Source: Pseudomonadota bacterium (lineage in GTDB: Bacteria > Pseudomonadota > Gammaproteobacteria > Burkholderiales > Thiobacillaceae). From it: 64,000 nt of DNA. Below, piece after piece: positions 49,202-55,658 of the stretch. Location of the stretch: positions 62,001-126,000 of the forward strand of contig JAJZRU010000004.1 of assembly GCA_021802555.1 (NCBI GenBank). The letters are read 5' to 3'. How positions within the stretch are numbered: position 1 is the stretch's first letter; each line of letters opens with the position of its first letter. The position numbers were made by a program, and so were the translations under genes. Under the pieces are notes generated by a model that worked only from the letters and a program-made list of their open reading frames with translations, was not told the DNA's origin and made no database searches.

Positions 49202-51382
49202 TCAGGGAACGCAAGCTTTCAACCCCGCGGCGGTGGGCGCCGCGACGGCGGACGCAAACCCCGGAAAGCCGTAATGGCGTACGCCTTCCAGGATGCCCGC
49301 CGCGTGATGGGCGCGTGCCATGTAGACACGCTCATGGCCGGCCAGATCGGCGATCTCTTCGCTGTGGTTGCCCACCACCACCGCGAGGGTATCGCCCACC
49401 AGCATCTCGCGGTCGTTGCCGGAATCTCCCGCCACCAGGATGCGCTCCAGCGGCAGGCCCCAGCGGTAGGCCAGATAGCGGATGGCCTGCCCCTTGGAGG
49501 CGCGCACCGGCAGCACGTCCAGAAAAATACGCTGCGAGTGGATGAGGCGCGCATAAAGCCGGTGGCGCGACAGTTCGGCGCGGATTTCGCGCAGATCGGG
49601 CGCGTGATCGCTCTCCAGATAATAGCTCAGCTTGAATTCGCGCTGGTTCTCCGCCGGCTGCAGGCACAGCCCCGGCAGGTGATCCAGCAGCTGCTGCACT
49701 TCCGCGCGGCGCCAGCGATAGCGGATGTGGCTGGCCCAGCCCAGATCCTGCTTCAGCGTGCGCCCGTAATGGATCTCCGAACCCACCGAGCTGATGAGGA
49801 TGTCGGGGCGCCTGACCTTCCACTGGCGCAGGATCTTGAGGGTGGTTTCCAGGCTGCGCCCGGTCGCCACCGCAAAGCCCATCTGGCGATGGGCCTCCAG
49901 CCAGGCCATGAGTTCGCGCAGGCTGGCGGCATCCCCCAACAGGGTATTGTCGATATCGGATACCAGCAGGGACGCCACGAGCGGAAGATCGACTCCTTGG
50001 GTGAAGGCCACTTGCTCGCGCCGCAAGCGTTTGCGATGCCGGCGCAACAGGATGTCCGTCTGCCTGAGATATTTGTCCACGTGCGCCTGCCAGGTGTAAT
50101 GGCGCCGCACCCCTGCCCGCCCGCTGCGCACCCAGCCCTGCCAGCGGCGGCGATCGGTCAGGGCGTCCAGCAGGGCAGCCGAAATTTCCGCCGTATTCAG
50201 GGGATCGACCAACAGGCCGTTGCGGCAGTTGGCGACGATGTCCTGGGGGCCGCCGTCATGAGTGGCGATGATGGGCAACCCGCTGGCCGCCGCCTCGATC
50301 AGCGTCAGGCCGAAAGGCTCCGTCAAGGCGACGTTCACGAACACCCCGCCGCTGCGGGCCGCGGCCCGATAGTAGTCGGCCACTTCGCTTTGCTCATGAT
50401 GCTTGGGCAGAGCCATGCTGCCGTACAAATCGTGCCGATCCAGCGCCAGCAGCAACTGCGTATAAATCTCCTTTTGCTCCTCCGGCAGAGCGCTGATGTC
50501 GTCGCGATTGCCGCACACGATCGCCAGATTGGCGCGCGCTCGCAAAGCCGGGCTTGCCGCATAGGCCTCCACCAGGCGGATCAGATTCTTGCGCGCGTCC
50601 GGGCGCGCAATGGCCAATATCATGGGTTTGCCCGGATCGCGCAGGAACGGCGCTACGGCGTTGCGCACCGATCGCCCCTGCCAGCCGACGCCCGGCGGGC
50701 TGAAGCGGCTCGTGTCGGTGCCGGGCGGAATGACGACAAACGCGCCCTCGGGGAAATTGTCGTACAGGCCCCACTGGCGGGAAATCTCCTGGCGCGTGCT
50801 GGTGACGATGAGGTCCGCCTCGCGCAGCACCTCTTCTTCCGCCGCAAAGCGGCGCGGAAACTGGTAGAGATGATCTATGCGGCCCGCCTTGCGGCCGGCG
50901 TCCAGCAGGCGCCGGCGCTTGCAGCGCCCGAGCGAATGGCCGGTGTGGATCAGGGGCAGCCCGGTGAGGTGGGAAAGCTGCACGCCGACATAGCCCGCAT
51001 CCGCATAGTGGCCATGGATGACGTCGGGCAGGCGCTGCTGCTGCCGCAGGTAATGCAGCACACGATCGACCGCATGGTCGAGATGCGGCCACAGGGCCTC
51101 CTTGCGCAAATAGCGCTGCGGCCCGAAGGGAAGGCGCACGATGCGCACCTTGTCGCTCAGCCGCTCTTCCTCGCGCGCATAGTCTTCCGCCAGCGCCGGA
51201 TCGATCACCTGGCGCGTCACCAGATCGACGCGGCCGACGTCGTCCTGCTCGCCCAGCGCGCGCGCGAGATCCAGCACATAGGTGACCTGCCCGCCGGTAT
51301 CCTCGTCGCGCCCCAATTCGACTGCGGTGCCGCGTATCAAGCCGTGCAGGCTCAAGAGAAGGATATAGCGGCCTTCACTCAT
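49202..51382 (-). CDS. Sucrose-phosphate synthase with C-terminal phosphatase-like domain
   Basis: Makes sucrose-6-phosphate from a nucleotide-glucose and fructose-6-phosphate. The 726-residue protein has an N-terminal GT4 domain (LLSLHGLIRGTAVELGRDED, then THDGGPQDIVANCRNGLLVD) and a C-terminal HAD domain of the sucrose-phosphatase type (SDIDNTLLGD; AVATGRSLETTLKIL; GDSGNDREML), so both steps may be in one protein, although the phosphatase activity of such domains varies. The ATG at 51382 overlaps the fructokinase stop by 8 bases. Confidence 0.95.
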   Translation of the reverse strand: MSEGRYILLLSLHGLIRGTAVELGRDEDTGGQVTYVLDLARALGEQDDVGRVDLVTRQVIDPALAEDYAREEERLSDKVRIVRLPFGPQRYLRKEALWPHLDHAVDRVLHYLRQQQRLPDVIHGHYADAGYVGVQLSHLTGLPLIHTGHSLGRCKRRRLLDAGRKAGRIDHLYQFPRRFAAEEEVLREADLIVTSTRQEISRQWGLYDNFPEGAFVVIPPGTDTSRFSPPGVGWQGRSVRNAVAPFLRDPGKPMILAIARPDARKNLIRLVEAYAASPALRARANLAIVCGNRDDISALPEEQKEIYTQLLLALDRHDLYGSMALPKHHEQSEVADYYRAAARSGGVFVNVALTEPFGLTLIEAAASGLPIIATHDGGPQDIVANCRNGLLVDPLNTAEISAALLDALTDRRRWQGWVRSGRAGVRRHYTWQAHVDKYLRQTDILLRRHRKRLRREQVAFTQGVDLPLVASLLVSDIDNTLLGDAASLRELMAWLEAHRQMGFAVATGRSLETTLKILRQWKVRRPDILISSVGSEIHYGRTLKQDLGWASHIRYRWRRAEVQQLLDHLPGLCLQPAENQREFKLSYYLESDHAPDLREIRAELSRHRLYARLIHSQRIFLDVLPVRASKGQAIRYLAYRWGLPLERILVAGDSGNDREMLVGDTLAVVVGNHSEEIADLAGHERVYMARAHHAAGILEGVRHYGFPGFASAVAAPTAAGLKACVP

Positions 51383-52307
51383 GGCTCTCCTCCCCCCATT
51401 CCCGCAGGGTTTCCCGATAGATGCCATGGTCCTGGGGCACCGCCCCGCGCACGCGCAGCATGCGCCGCGCGAAGCGGTCGGCGCGCGCCAGCATCACCGG
51501 CAGGCGCCAGCCTTCCAGCAGGCCGTGGATGGCAACGGCGGCAAAGGCGTCGCCCGCCCCCACGCTGTCGACCAGCGGTTCATCGAGAGGCGCGCCCGGC
51601 AGATCGAACACCTGGCCGTCCAGCGTCGCCGCCTGGGCGCCCTGTGCGCCGCGGGTCAGCAGCAGCATGCGCAGATCGTAGCGCTTCAGCAGACGATAGC
51701 TGACCGCCTCCGGGGAGCCGGCAAGCTTCAGCCAGTCGCGCAGCACTTCCAGTTCGTGCAGATTCAGCTTCACCACCTGCGCATGGCGCAGCAGCCACTC
51801 CACGATGCTGCGCTCGTACCAGGGCGCACGCAGGTTCACGTCCATGAATTTGAGCCCCGGGCTCAGGCGCAGCACCCCCTGCAAGGCGCGCCGCGTCGTC
51901 GGCCCGCGCGCCGCCAGGCTGCCGAAGTAGACCGCCCGCGGATGCGCCGACAGCGCGGTGAGCCGCGCCAGCCCGGCGTGGATATGGTCGTAAGCCTGGT
52001 CGGGAAGGATATCGAAGACGGGCTCGCCGGGTTCCAGGTTGACCATGACTTGCCCGGTGGGATGACGCGGATCGAGCTGCAGGCCGCGTACTTCCATGCC
52101 GAACTGGTTGCAGGCCTCCAGCACCGGAGCCAGGCGCTGATCGCGCCCCACGCGGCTGATGAGCAAGGCGCCGCTGCCGAAGCCGGCCAGGTGGCGAGCC
52201 ACGTTGAACGGCGCGCCGCCAAGAACTTCCGCATCGGGAAAGATGTCGTATAGCACCTCGCCGAAGACGAGCACCGAGTTGTGCAAAGCCGCAGACTGTT
52301 GGTTCAT
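51375..52307 (-). CDS. Fructokinase (PfkB family)
   Basis: A 310-residue ribokinase-type sugar kinase. It has GEVLYDIFPDAEVLGGAPFN near the start, with GGAPFNVARHLAGFG as first motif, and DSVGAGDAFAAVAIHGLLEG, the C-terminal catalytic signature. With SPS and sucrose synthase it makes a sucrose module as described in methylotrophs and Nitrosomonas, in which the kinase recycles fructose. It is the first gene of the operon; a gene-free region with an inverted repeat lies upstream. Confidence 0.92.
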   Translation of the reverse strand: MNQQSAALHNSVLVFGEVLYDIFPDAEVLGGAPFNVARHLAGFGSGALLISRVGRDQRLAPVLEACNQFGMEVRGLQLDPRHPTGQVMVNLEPGEPVFDILPDQAYDHIHAGLARLTALSAHPRAVYFGSLAARGPTTRRALQGVLRLSPGLKFMDVNLRAPWYERSIVEWLLRHAQVVKLNLHELEVLRDWLKLAGSPEAVSYRLLKRYDLRMLLLTRGAQGAQAATLDGQVFDLPGAPLDEPLVDSVGAGDAFAAVAIHGLLEGWRLPVMLARADRFARRMLRVRGAVPQDHGIYRETLREWGEESHE

Positions 52308-52425
52308 TGCCTATGCCCCGAGGCCCGCGCGAGCGGACGATCGGCGATCTGAAAGGATAGGTGCTGCAGCGGTCCTCGGCCCGAAGGCCGGCGAAACAGG
52401 CTCAACTGCGCCCGCAGCAGTGGGT

Positions 52426-52516
52426 TTATTGATCCGGCATTATTGGACTTGGAAATGTACGGCGACACAAAAGCATGCGTGTCTCGATTTTCAGCAAGGA
52501 AAGGCCGGATCAATAA
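52426..52516. repeat. 91-bp element bounded by 13-bp perfect inverted repeats
   Basis: TTATTGATCCGGC at 52426-52438 and GCCGGATCAATAA at 52504-52516 are perfect inverted copies. The inner 65 bases have no ORF. It is either a miniature mobile element or a long hairpin in the leader of the sucrose operon. Confidence 0.55.
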
Positions 52517-52762
52517 CATTCAACCTCGGCTGGTTCGAGGCGGCCCAGTGGCCGTATTCAACGCCTCTACCGCACCAGGGTCGTTTCAAGTTTATAGGTG
52601 CGCCCCAATAATCTGATTTTCAAAGGTGACAGAAACCTTGCGCGCAAAGTTCCCGCCTCCGATGCGCGCCCTCCGTCGGCGCGGCCGCCATACCGCTCCG
52701 GCCCGGGCCGGGACCGATCACAGCGATTGACGAATATTGGTCATCTTAATCCCATCATGTGT

Positions 52763-52788
52763 GTAAGAAAACCGCTGCCTCGTTCGAC
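52763..52788 (+). promoter_or_regulatory. Candidate ECF-sigma promoter of the bufferin cluster
   Basis: GTAAGA and CGAC are separated by 16 bases, close to GTAACC-N16-CGAA, the motif of the ECF factor SigF that drives the Caulobacter bufferin operons. Predicted start is near 52795, 82 bases before the bufA-like ATG. The matches are imperfect (G for C, C for A in the final positions). Confidence 0.4.
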
Positions 52789-52876
52789 CAAGCTTCACAG
52801 GGCACAATGGAGCCGACAATATTGCGAGACTCGCACGCCAGCCGGCCGACTCCAACAAACCACAGGAGATCAACAC

Positions 52877-53221
52877 ATGGACAAACGCCGACTCATCGCC
52901 GCGACTTCGGTCTCGCTGCTCGCGTTGGGCATCCTCGCCGCCCCGCCTGCCAGCCGCGCCGCCGCGCTGGAAAAATGCTTCGGCGCCGCCAAGGCCGGAG
53001 AGAACGCCTGTGCCGGCGTGCACCATTGCGCCGCGCTTTCGGATCTGCACGGCTGCAAAGGCTCCAGCAAGGTGAATTACGATCCGGCCGACTTTCGGCT
53101 CGTGCCCGACAGCACCTGCGCGAAACTGGGCGGCCTGGACGAGCAGCAGGCCAAAGCCCTGCTCAAGCATCCGCGCGCAGTGCATGCCTTCGAAGCGCAA
53201 ATGCAAAAGCGCAATTCCTGA
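52877..53221 (+). CDS. Bufferin-type RiPP precursor (DUF2282-like), five cysteines
   Basis: The 114-residue product has a Sec signal (residues 1-30, cleavage after SRAAA) and a mature part of the DUF2282 type: LEKCFGAAKAGENACAG, a HHC motif and FRLVPDSTCAKLGG. Cysteines sit at residues 34, 45, 51, 60 and 81. DUF2282 precursors usually have four; the Cys60 in LHGCKGSSK is in an extra segment of about ten residues. A charged tail of about 28 residues after Gly86 is also longer than usual. Such proteins are exported, their Cys are converted to 5-thiooxazoles by the MNIO partner and they bind copper. Adjacent genes encode exactly the expected enzymes. Start follows AGGAGA. Confidence 0.85.
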   Translation: MDKRRLIAATSVSLLALGILAAPPASRAAALEKCFGAAKAGENACAGVHHCAALSDLHGCKGSSKVNYDPADFRLVPDSTCAKLGGLDEQQAKALLKHPRAVHAFEAQMQKRNS

Positions 53222-53250
53222 ACCAGCCCGCCGCCGACCCTCGACTGCTC

Positions 53251-54132
53251 ATGCCAGCCCCCCCTCTCCTCCACGGCATCGGCCTGCGCCAGCCGCACTA
53301 CCGGGAATTCCGCGCCCTGCGCCCTCCCCTGGGCTTCGTCGAAGTGCATTCGGAGAATTTCTTCAATCCACATGACGCGGCATCGCAAGTGCTCGCCGCC
53401 GTGCGCAAGGATTATCCCGTGAGCCTGCACGGCGTCGGCCTGGCGCTGGGCTCGGCCTGCGGGCTGGACGAGCATCACGTGCGCCAGCTCGCCGAGCTGG
53501 TTGCACGCATCGATCCGGTGCGCATCTCGGACCATGCCTGCTTCGCACGCGCGCCCTGGGGGCAGCGCGGCATCGTGCATGCCGGCGATCTTCTGCCCAT
53601 CGCCTACACGCACGCCTCGCTGGACATCCTGTGCGCCAACGTCGAACGCGTACAGGATCGCCTGGGGCGCCCGTTGCTGGTGGAAAATCTGAGCGCCTAT
53701 CTGGATTTTCCCGAGCGCGATTTCAGCGAGCCGCAGTTTTTCGCCGAACTGGGGCGGCGCAGCGGCTGCGGCCTGCTGCTGGACGTCAACAATCTCTACG
53801 TCAATGCGCTGAACGCCGCCGAGCCCGACCCGCTGCAAGCGGTGTGCGGCTGGATTTCCGAACTCGCGCGCGAAGCGCCGCCCGGCCTGGTGGGCGAAAT
53901 CCACCTCGCGGGCTTCAGCGAGCAGCAAGGGCTCATCATCGACGACCATTCCCGCCTCGTCGCGGAGGCTGTCTGGCAAGCCTATGTCCATGCGCTCGAC
54001 TGCCTGGGCCCGGTGTCCACCCTGATCGAGTGGGACGAGCATCTGCCCACCCTGTCCGTGCTGCTGGGCCAGGCCGAGCGTGCCGGTGCGCTGTGTGCCG
54101 CACGTTGCGAGACTGCGCAGGCCGCATCATGA
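53251..54132 (+). CDS. DUF692 multinuclear non-heme iron oxidase (MNIO, BufB type)
   Basis: A 293-residue TIM-barrel enzyme of the DUF692 family that modifies cysteines in RiPP precursors with O2. Conserved metal- and site-residue blocks are visible: VEVHSENFF, SLHGVGLALGS, SDHACFA, LLVENLSAYL, LLDVNNLYVNA, GEIHLAGFSE, IDDHSRLV and EWDEHLP. It follows the precursor gene by 29 bases and overlaps the next gene by 4 bases (ATGA). Within MNIOs it is closest by layout to BufB, because it is paired with DUF2282 and DUF2063 genes. Confidence 0.92.
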   Translation: MPAPPLLHGIGLRQPHYREFRALRPPLGFVEVHSENFFNPHDAASQVLAAVRKDYPVSLHGVGLALGSACGLDEHHVRQLAELVARIDPVRISDHACFARAPWGQRGIVHAGDLLPIAYTHASLDILCANVERVQDRLGRPLLVENLSAYLDFPERDFSEPQFFAELGRRSGCGLLLDVNNLYVNALNAAEPDPLQAVCGWISELAREAPPGLVGEIHLAGFSEQQGLIIDDHSRLVAEAVWQAYVHALDCLGPVSTLIEWDEHLPTLSVLLGQAERAGALCAARCETAQAAS

Positions 54133-54938
54133 GCGCCGCTACTCACACCACCGAACTGGAGCGCCAGCAGCGCCTGATCGCGGCCATCTTCGCGCCGCAG
54201 ATGGAGCCTGCCGCGTGCCCGGACGTGCTGCAGGACGGCGCGCGCCGGGAAGCGGGGCTGGCCGCCTACCGCGGCAACGGACTGGCGCACGCGCGCAATG
54301 CCCTGCGAGCGCAGTTCCCTACCGTGCTGGCCATGCTCGGCAACGACGCCTTCGACGTCCTGAGCGCGCGCTACTGGCGCGCCCGCCCGCCGCGGCGCGG
54401 CGATCTCGCCTGGGTGGGCGAGGAACTGCCCGCCTACATTGCGACCGTGGATAGCCTCGATGCCTGGCCCTGGCTCGCCGACTGCGCGCGCCTGGACTGG
54501 GCGATATGGCAGACGGCCGGCGCGGCACCGCCGCGCATGACGCACGCCGACCTGCAGCGCCTGGCGGCAGAAGACCCGGCCGGCCTGTCCCTGCGCCTTG
54601 CCGGCTGCACCGCGTACATTCCCTCTGCTTGGCCCATCGTCACCATCCACCTGGCACACCAGGACGAGGCCGCCGACTGGAGCATGGTCAGGCAGGCCAT
54701 CCTCGACGGCGGGGGCCAGACCGCCTGGGTCTGGCGCCCGCAGGGCGACGCAGCGGCCGAAGTGCGCACGATCGCCTTGGAAGACGCCGCCGCACGCTGG
54801 GTCGCGGCGCTGGCTGCAGGCGAGAGCATCGTCGGCGCCCTCGACGCTGCGGGCGAGGGTTTCGATTTCGCCGCCTGGATGCAAAAGGCGCTCGCCGAAG
54901 GCTGGCTCGACGGCGTTGCCGCCTTCGCGCCGCGCTGA
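54129..54938 (+). CDS. DUF2063 protein, RiPP recognition partner (BufC type)
   Basis: A 269-residue protein with the DUF2063 N-terminal domain (ELERQQRLIAAIFAPQM; YRGNGLAHARNALRAQFPTV; WVGEELPAYIA) and a less conserved C-terminal part. BufC-like partners bind the precursor peptide and help the MNIO; the domain is a RiPP recognition element relative. Translationally coupled to the DUF692 gene. No BufD (DoxX) gene or sigF/anti-sigma pair lies nearby in the window. Confidence 0.88.
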   Translation: MSAATHTTELERQQRLIAAIFAPQMEPAACPDVLQDGARREAGLAAYRGNGLAHARNALRAQFPTVLAMLGNDAFDVLSARYWRARPPRRGDLAWVGEELPAYIATVDSLDAWPWLADCARLDWAIWQTAGAAPPRMTHADLQRLAAEDPAGLSLRLAGCTAYIPSAWPIVTIHLAHQDEAADWSMVRQAILDGGGQTAWVWRPQGDAAAEVRTIALEDAAARWVAALAAGESIVGALDAAGEGFDFAAWMQKALAEGWLDGVAAFAPR

Positions 54939-55091
54939 CCGCCCGCCGCGCACCCTTCCCGTAGGGCGGAACTCCGCTCGGCACAGGCGGTCGCCTCGTG
55001 AAGCGCGCACGTGCGCGCAAATGCAGGCGCGACGACGCGCCGCGGCCGGGCGCGATCTGCCGCTGCTTCGTTTCTCAACACAGGAGGCTAC

Positions 55092-55658
55092 ATGAAATCA
55101 CCCACCTGGGAGCAAACCCTGACCTGGTTTCAGCACATCGATGCGCGGATTTTCGTGAGCGCGCTCGTTCTTCTGCTGTTCTGGCTCGCCGCGCGCATCG
55201 GCCGGCGCGCCCTGCGCGCCGGCCTCTCGCATCTGGGCCCGCACATCCAGATCGGCGAAGAACGCCGCCGGGTGCTGCAGAAAATCATCGATGCGACACT
55301 CTGGCTGCTCGCCCTGCTGGTGATTCTGGGCGTATGGGGCATACAGGCCAATGTCCTCTGGGCCGGACTCGCCAGCGTGCTGGCGGTCGCCGGCGTGGGC
55401 CTCATCGCCACCTGGGCCATGGTAAGCAATTGGACGGCCTGGATGCTCATCGTGCTCACGCGCCCCTTCCGCCCTGGCGACGAAGTGCAGATCCTGCCGG
55501 AAAATCTCTCCGGGCGGGTTGCGCGCCAGGGGCTGATGTTCACCGAACTGGATCAGGACGACGGCGGCTGCGTGGTAGTGCCCAACAATTTCTTCTTCCA
55601 GCGCATTTACGTGCGCCGTGCCGGCGCCCCGGAATCCGGCGGGCGCCAGGCGGCCTGA
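55092..55658 (+). CDS. Small mechanosensitive channel (MscS family)
   Basis: A 188-residue MscS-type protein. There are three likely membrane helices: FVSALVLLLFWLAARIG, LWLLALLVILGVWGI and the pore-lining SVLAVAGVGLIATWAMV, then the beta domain with RPFRPGDEVQIL and CVVVPNNFFF. The C-terminal alpha-beta domain is truncated relative to E. coli MscS. AGGAGG precedes the ATG. It lies 150 bases after the bufferin cluster; osmotic release of sucrose is a tempting but unproven link to the sucrose operon. Confidence 0.88.
   Translation: MKSPTWEQTLTWFQHIDARIFVSALVLLLFWLAARIGRRALRAGLSHLGPHIQIGEERRRVLQKIIDATLWLLALLVILGVWGIQANVLWAGLASVLAVAGVGLIATWAMVSNWTAWMLIVLTRPFRPGDEVQILPENLSGRVARQGLMFTELDQDDGGCVVVPNNFFFQRIYVRRAGAPESGGRQAA

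Follow-up and report, generated by a model that had tools for sequence, protein, structure and literature searches.

The window analyzed here is a stretch of 64,000 nucleotides from a genome of the family Thiobacillaceae (contig JAJZRU010000004.1), and its positions 52877–54938 hold a bufferin gene cluster of the Buf1 type: three intact open reading frames in one direction, in the order bufA–bufB–bufC. On the forward strand, the bufA-like gene (52877..53221, ATG start) encodes a DUF2282 (Buf1) precursor of 114 amino acids, the bufB-like gene (53251..54132) an MNIO (DUF692/MbnB_TglH_ChrH) enzyme of 293 amino acids, and the bufC-like gene (54129..54938) a DUF2063 partner of 269 amino acids. In profile searches, all three proteins exceed the Pfam cut-offs (49.7 bits with a cut-off of 22.4 for PF10048 DUF2282, 282.5 with 25 for PF05114 MNIO, and 61 with 27.2 for PF09836 DUF2063). 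A ribosome-binding-site-like AGGAGA lies 5′ of the precursor gene, and the stop of the MNIO gene overlaps the start of the partner gene in an ATGA (54129–54132), as in the coupled start described by a first-pass annotation of this DNA. The same annotation had named the three families and placed three co-directional genes here; the family identities stand, the coordinates are exact, and the frames are open. It had proposed DUF2282 similarity of the precursor as a test, and this similarity is clear.

For comparison, we used the best 80 of 394 precursor loci, whose query included the three five-Cys sequences described below and thereby favors rather than hides five-Cys variants. Many of these loci (L numbers) are closely related, and all counts refer to sequences, not events. 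Alignments comprised 42 precursors, 41 partners, and 23 enzymes, chosen from 85, 70, and 71 sequences plus the window's own. An MNIO match lies within the fetched DNA of 74 of the 80 precursor loci, and in comparisons among three species of the genus each gene of the trio has a ratio of nonsynonymous to synonymous substitution rates (dN/dS) well under 1 (0.190/0.591, 0.104/0.579, and 0.229/0.741 between the window and L070), which argues that the trio is not a chance arrangement. Conservation in relatives, the second test that had been proposed, is thus observed as well.

Buf1 precursors have been described with four Cys, of which the central ones are modified, whereas the outer pair forms a disulfide (PMC12452194; all papers are cited here from excerpts). 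The window precursor possesses five (Cys34, Cys45, Cys51, Cys60, and Cys81), so that its earlier description as "Cys-containing" was correct but understated. Cys34, Cys45, Cys60, and Cys81 align with the four conserved Cys of Buf1, which occupy invariant columns, and Cys51 is extra. It is carried by a six-residue insert, VHHCAA (codons 48–53; 53018..53035, forward strand), which sits between Cys45-Ala-Gly and Leu-Ser and is absent from the four-Cys relatives. Insert and extra Cys are found in all three species of the genus returned by the searches, with VHHCAT in L069 and THNCAG in L070.

A profile grown from the window precursor found 144 DUF2282 frames in the loci, the window gene being counted several times: 133 have four Cys, nine have five, and two were missed by the first pattern. 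All nine five-Cys frames are either repeats of the window gene or belong to the two sister species; once identical sequences had been removed and the pattern had been widened, 121 four-Cys precursors stood against three five-Cys precursors. In a class-wide sample of 369 genomes (the present one included), only the window precursor gains six residues over the profile among the 121 DUF2282 matches listed, and two others gain three. Of the distinct four-Cys precursors, 117 of 121 have a His at position −2 of the third Cys, and none has a His at this distance from any of its other three Cys. The extra Cys likewise has a His at −2 in all three species, so that the insert, as judged from sequence, copies the local H-x-C context of a central Cys. 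The first-pass view that this precursor departs from the norm can therefore be made specific: it has one additional Cys, and the residues around it match those of a canonical modification site.

The N terminus of the precursor resembles a signal peptide by eye (MDKRR, a hydrophobic run, and ASRAA), and no EGKCG-type repeat is present in its sequence. Its C terminus forms a tail of 28 residues (residues 87–114; 53135..53218, forward strand) that is confidently predicted as two helices and recurs in a paralog on contig C47 of the same genome and in Thiomonas-type relatives. The mature core is modeled with less certainty than the tail, and the first 20 residues and the region of Cys51 are of low confidence. 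A fold search with this model matched no solved structure, and a PDB sequence search with the precursor alignment gave no matches. Literature searches on DUF2282 and bufferins returned neither a five-Cys Buf1 nor a tail among the entries listed, although supplementary figures or tables may show either; in PMC12452194, a text search for "five Cys" and "additional Cys" gave no match. At two other loci (L092 and L096), a single MNIO gene is preceded by DUF2282 precursor genes in tandem, of which one encodes a tailed and the other a short form.

The enzyme is matched best by far, among the NCBIfam models, by NF050167 MNIO_BufB, at 293.6 bits and thus below the cut-off of 310. It reaches only 155.9 bits with the HvfB model (cut-off 360) and 41.1 bits with the MbnB model TIGR04159 (cut-off 325). 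We therefore rejected membership in the methanobactin family and, also because no EGKCG repeat is present, in the oxazolins/captophorins. Among solved structures, a sequence search with the enzyme returns 3BWW, the TglHI enzyme chain, and structures of MbnB. His60, His95, Glu145, Asp178, His218, Asp231, His233, Glu260, and Asp262 are invariant in all 23 aligned enzymes; we take these residues to include the iron ligands known from MNIO structures and the family motif, and Asp262 to be the counterpart of the catalytic base FonB-Asp249. In two loci from different families (L082:6387-8093 and L065:1764-3242, both forward), MNIO and DUF2063 partner are fused in a single frame with Pfam matches to both domains.

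The predicted structure of the partner (predicted local distance difference test score of 92.9) has TglI (8hi7_A; E 1.6e-6, template modeling (TM) score 0.58, 295 alignment columns) and NGO1945 (3dee; E 1.4e-3, TM score by target 0.67, 234 alignment columns) among its top three Foldseek matches in the PDB. The latter is described as a typical DUF2063-RRE partner (PMC12452194), and we class the window protein as a type 1 partner, in which the DUF2063 domain is predicted to be fused to an RRE-type domain. A PDB sequence search with the partner missed both TglI and NGO1945 and gave two AmpR-type matches (E 0.14–0.15), which we regard as unrelated. Family searches, partner fold, and gene order together back the original assignment of a bufferin-type cluster.

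Searches of the whole genome revealed two MNIO genes (in the window and on contig C18) and three DUF2282 genes (at these two places and on contig C47). The C47 gene encodes an orphan precursor with four Cys and no insert, which shares 64% identity with the window precursor. This gene is followed in its operon by a DoxX gene, the only one detected in the genome, and no MNIO gene is part of this operon. The earlier statement that the cluster lacks BufD is thus true for the window locus, but a DoxX gene is found on C47, and we rejected the idea that the organism has no BufD-like gene. Among the relatives, DoxX is present in the fetched DNA of 54 of 80; it is frequent but not universal and hence not defining for Buf1. 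A sister species, SKS3.bin47, has both operons (L069 and L091). At L099:6001-6921 (forward), from a metagenome-assembled genome (MAG) labeled Rhodanobacter, a tailed precursor is likewise accompanied by DoxX, with no MNIO gene in the flanks fetched. The C18 set (L003:6796-8869, reverse) is a complete A-B-C set. Its precursor, a DUF2282 protein of 146 amino acids, is only distantly related to the window precursor and has a long C-terminal part of a different kind.

An intact A-B-C-D cluster is present in L072, a MAG contig. Among the loci compared, it encodes the enzyme and partner closest to those of the window outside the three species (79.6 and 55% identity, respectively), and its precursor and DoxX share 73 and 70.5% identity with those of the orphan operon. 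In a precursor tree of 44 rows (loci up to L108 and two sequences of our genome), the L072 precursor groups with the C47 orphan (support 92/77), and the three five-Cys precursors form a firm clade of their own (99/92). The simplest account would be that the precursor of an A-B-C-D cluster was duplicated, that a four-Cys copy stayed with DoxX, and that the other copy, remaining with bufB and bufC, gained the insert.

The two operons also appear to share a regulatory element. Upstream of the window precursor gene, a genome pattern scan finds a promoter-like motif of the type recognized by extracytoplasmic function (ECF) sigma factors, TGTAAGRA-N14..16-CGAC (52762..52788, forward strand). This strict form has two exact matches in the 2.77-Mb genome, one before the window trio and one before the precursor–DoxX operon on C47; C18 has none, and a reversed-pattern control gave no match in the genome. 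A looser form, GT[AC]AG[AG]A-N12..18-CGA, occurs ahead of 45 of the 87 precursor genes whose upstream sequence was scanned (43 of the 85 fetched, plus those of the window and C47), with spacers of 14 (28 cases), 15 (16 cases), or 17 (one case) and mostly ∼85–140 bases before the start, whereas 30 rounds of dinucleotide shuffling gave a mean of 0.47 and a maximum of four. It is common in L069–L108 and rare in more distant loci. The window motif resembles the Caulobacter sigma-F site GTAACC-N16-CGAA upstream of DUF2282 operons (PMC3511200). Within 52250–55200, simple scanning detected a single sigma-70 promoter-like site (9 of 12; 0.2 in shuffles) and three terminator-like sites (2.0 in shuffles), none of which we used.

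A candidate for the cognate sigma factor is encoded on contig C24 (L166:3314-4103, forward), apart from the contigs of both MNIO genes, where a gene for an ECF sigma factor of the TIGR02943 family is followed by one for a small zf-HC2 protein. Our genome has 16 sigma-70 region 4 matches, and 12 of these loci were compared with the flanks of the precursor loci. Relatives of the C24 sigma factor occur in the flanks of 45 of the 80 precursor loci (median 123.8 bits), whereas the other 11 have relatives in zero to six loci at no more than 47.4 bits. Both the C24 protein (172.2 bits) and a Thiomonas delicata sigma factor (228.2 bits), whose gene adjoins a bufferin cluster of this type, pass the TIGR02943 cut-off of 162.2. 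We infer that the C24 sigma factor may read the shared motif and switch on both operons. The annotation's remark that sigF is lacking is again true at the window locus, but a candidate exists in trans; a genome search at E 0.001 gave no match to NrsF, the Caulobacter anti-sigma factor. Genes related to the C24 sigma factor also lie near more distant MNIO genes (products 30–34% identical to the window enzyme) in nine loci of the window's own family (L026–L031, L035, L036, and L038).

Reading families, gene order, insert, split, shared motif, and selection directly from the DNA, and arguing by analogy for chemistry, metal, number of modified Cys, role of the sigma factor, and modification in trans, we are fairly confident that the trio is a Buf1-type bufferin operon within a split copper-buffering regulon, probably with a three-thiooxazole product. 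BufA would be made with a Sec signal peptide, bound in the cytoplasm by the pair of BufB (MNIO) and BufC (DUF2063-RRE), which would oxidize its central Cys to 5-thiooxazoles, and then exported in modified form by Sec. In the periplasm, the first and last Cys would form a disulfide, and the thiooxazoles would hold excess copper. Given the gain of a second H-x-C site, three modified Cys (Cys45, Cys51, and Cys60) instead of two are expected, corresponding to about −12 Da versus −8 Da, and the additional one may confer a higher copper capacity. The window BufB–BufC pair probably also matures the C47 orphan precursor, since this paralog and the only DoxX detected make up another operon headed by the shared promoter-like motif, and the ECF sigma factor, whose gene lies at a third site, would switch on both operons. 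More tentatively, one BufB–BufC pair and one ECF sigma factor might serve both a canonical four-Cys bufferin with DoxX and a genus-specific five-Cys, three-thiooxazole bufferin, whose copper stoichiometry or affinity would be without precedent among known Buf1.

Several observations weigh against this interpretation. The shortfall of the enzyme from the BufB cut-off is shared by the enzymes of L069 (296.2 bits), L070 (298.2), L072 (296.3), and Thiomonas delicata (306.3), and the C18 enzyme of our own genome (296.3) also falls below it; the cut-off is passed by those of L112 (Hydrogenophaga, 321.1 bits) and L128 (375 bits). We read this shortfall as the mark of a side branch, not of a different function. 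The precursor model is silent on the accessibility of Cys51, that region being of low confidence. In BP6.bin38 (G002), a partial genome of 80% completeness, the five-Cys operon is seen and no orphan copy. The 92/77 grouping of the L072 precursor with the orphan does not reach the level that the tree tool sets for firm support. Moreover, L073 and L071 score slightly more bits than L072 against the orphan precursor, as do L071 and L076 against its DoxX, so that descent from an L072-like cluster is not firm. The strict motif was derived from the very sites at which it is reported, so that its presence there is by construction, and a rough uniform-base estimate predicts ∼2 chance matches per genome; the motif therefore carries weight only in that it is absent from the rest of the genome and recurs in relatives, although 42 of the 87 upstream regions lack even the looser form. 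Finally, the orphan precursor could instead be matured by the separate MNIO pair of C18.

This last point leads to an alternative to which we give some, though not the greater, credence, namely that the orphan precursor is matured by the C18 pair or never and that the window enzyme serves only the five-Cys precursor. C18 does encode a complete A-B-C set, and PMC12452194, in the excerpts cited, leaves open whether orphan precursors are modified at all. However, the C18 precursor is distantly related, differs in its C-terminal part, and has no strict motif on its contig, whereas the orphan has its tail in common with the window precursor, and in L072 a four-Cys tailed precursor and DoxX stand beside the MNIO closest to the window's among the loci compared. 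Somewhat unlikely, in our judgment, is an ordinary bufferin operon in which Cys51 remains unmodified, as a free thiol or in a disulfide, and the product keeps two thiooxazoles. In the sets examined, the insert is confined to three related species; it is in four-Cys Buf1 that the central Cys are reported to be modified (PMC12452194), and tests of FonBC showed that the residues around the Cys matter (PMC13097082). Cys51 of the window is followed by Ala-Ala, compared with [K/A]-G at the canonical site. Yet the H-x-C context is copied in all three species, and the THNCAG insert of L070 comes close to the THSCAG of many relatives. Moreover, there is little conservation around the Cys of DUF2282 substrates, so that tolerance would be expected, and FonBC prefers a small residue after the Cys (both PMC13097082).

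A role of the product against a metal or stress other than copper (gold, chromium/cadmium, or oxidative stress) appears unlikely. Related operons were named GIG for their induction by gold (PMC12452194), and the work on Caulobacter sigma-F, under whose control DUF2282-DUF692-DUF2063 operons stand, dealt with it as a regulator for chromium/cadmium (PMC3511200), but copper binding has been reported for Caulobacter Buf1 and an oxazolin (PMC12452194), and 5-thiooxazole peptides have been linked to copper detoxification (PMC13097082). We give hardly any weight to a decaying locus, i.e. a bufferin operon whose BufD and regulator have disappeared. Neither DoxX nor a related ECF gene was found in the flanks examined of L069 and L070; against this, the frames are intact, the upstream motif is conserved, the downstream neighbors are the same in three species, and DoxX is kept on C47. 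Purifying selection (dN/dS below 1) acts on all three genes, for which reason we rejected this explanation as largely refuted.

Directly 3′ of the trio lies a gene for a small MscS-type protein (55092..55658, forward strand; PF00924, 37.6 bits), which occupies the same place in the two sister species and whose membership in the operon is uncertain. It is followed, in the window as in L069 and L070, by a lipoprotein-like gene and ABC-2 permease genes. Upstream, the window and L070 have a fructokinase-like gene on the opposite strand, in whose place L069 has an ABC-transporter-like gene, and the L069 upstream region is nearly identical to that of the window for ∼380 bases. We thus rejected the notion that the whole neighborhood is the same in the three species; only the downstream order is common to all. 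The fructokinase-like gene of the window adjoins a gene at 49202-52307 (reverse strand), divergent from the trio, whose product we take to be a sucrose-phosphate-synthase-like glycosyltransferase with a phosphatase-like end.

The window trio is a genuine Buf1 cluster of a known family, and what stands out is the added modification-like site and the proposed split regulon. If the more tentative interpretation holds, it would be a natural case of a modification site added by a six-residue insertion. The insertion raises the question of whether BufB recognizes the local H-x-C context and whether the added site raises copper capacity. With two precursors of the tailed subfamily, one with and one without the extra site, and two enzyme pairs, the genome itself offers a simple test.

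The closest known systems include those of Caulobacter and Thiomonas. The Caulobacter genes CC3254–CC3257 (DUF2282-DUF692-DUF2063-DoxX) presumably correspond to BufA1–BufD1. Like Caulobacter Buf1, the window operon has a DUF2282 precursor (here with an N terminus that resembles a signal peptide by eye), an MNIO, and a DUF2063-RRE partner in the order A-B-C, preceded by a promoter-like element of the GTAA...CGA form. It differs by five instead of four Cys and by the C-terminal helical tail, and its genome differs in that DoxX stands with a second precursor at another locus, NrsF was not found, and the candidate sigma factor is paired with a zf-HC2 protein. The Thiomonas-type tailed Buf1 clusters (L071, L074, and L083; also L072) share the tail, related enzymes and partners, and the looser motif with the window; unlike the window, they have four Cys and a DoxX gene after bufC in the cluster, and L071, L074, and L083 also have a related ECF sigma gene in the flank. 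With the captophorins/oxazolins (FonA-FonB-FonC and HvfA-HvfB-HvfC), the window operon has in common an MNIO with a type 1 partner and, probably, an exported precursor and the thiooxazole chemistry, whereas its precursor is a DUF2282 protein and theirs carry EGKCG repeats. The MNIO family also links it to the methanobactin (MbnB-MbnC) and pearlin (TglH-TglI) systems, whose precursors lack a signal peptide (PMC12452194), and the predicted fold of its partner resembles that of TglI.

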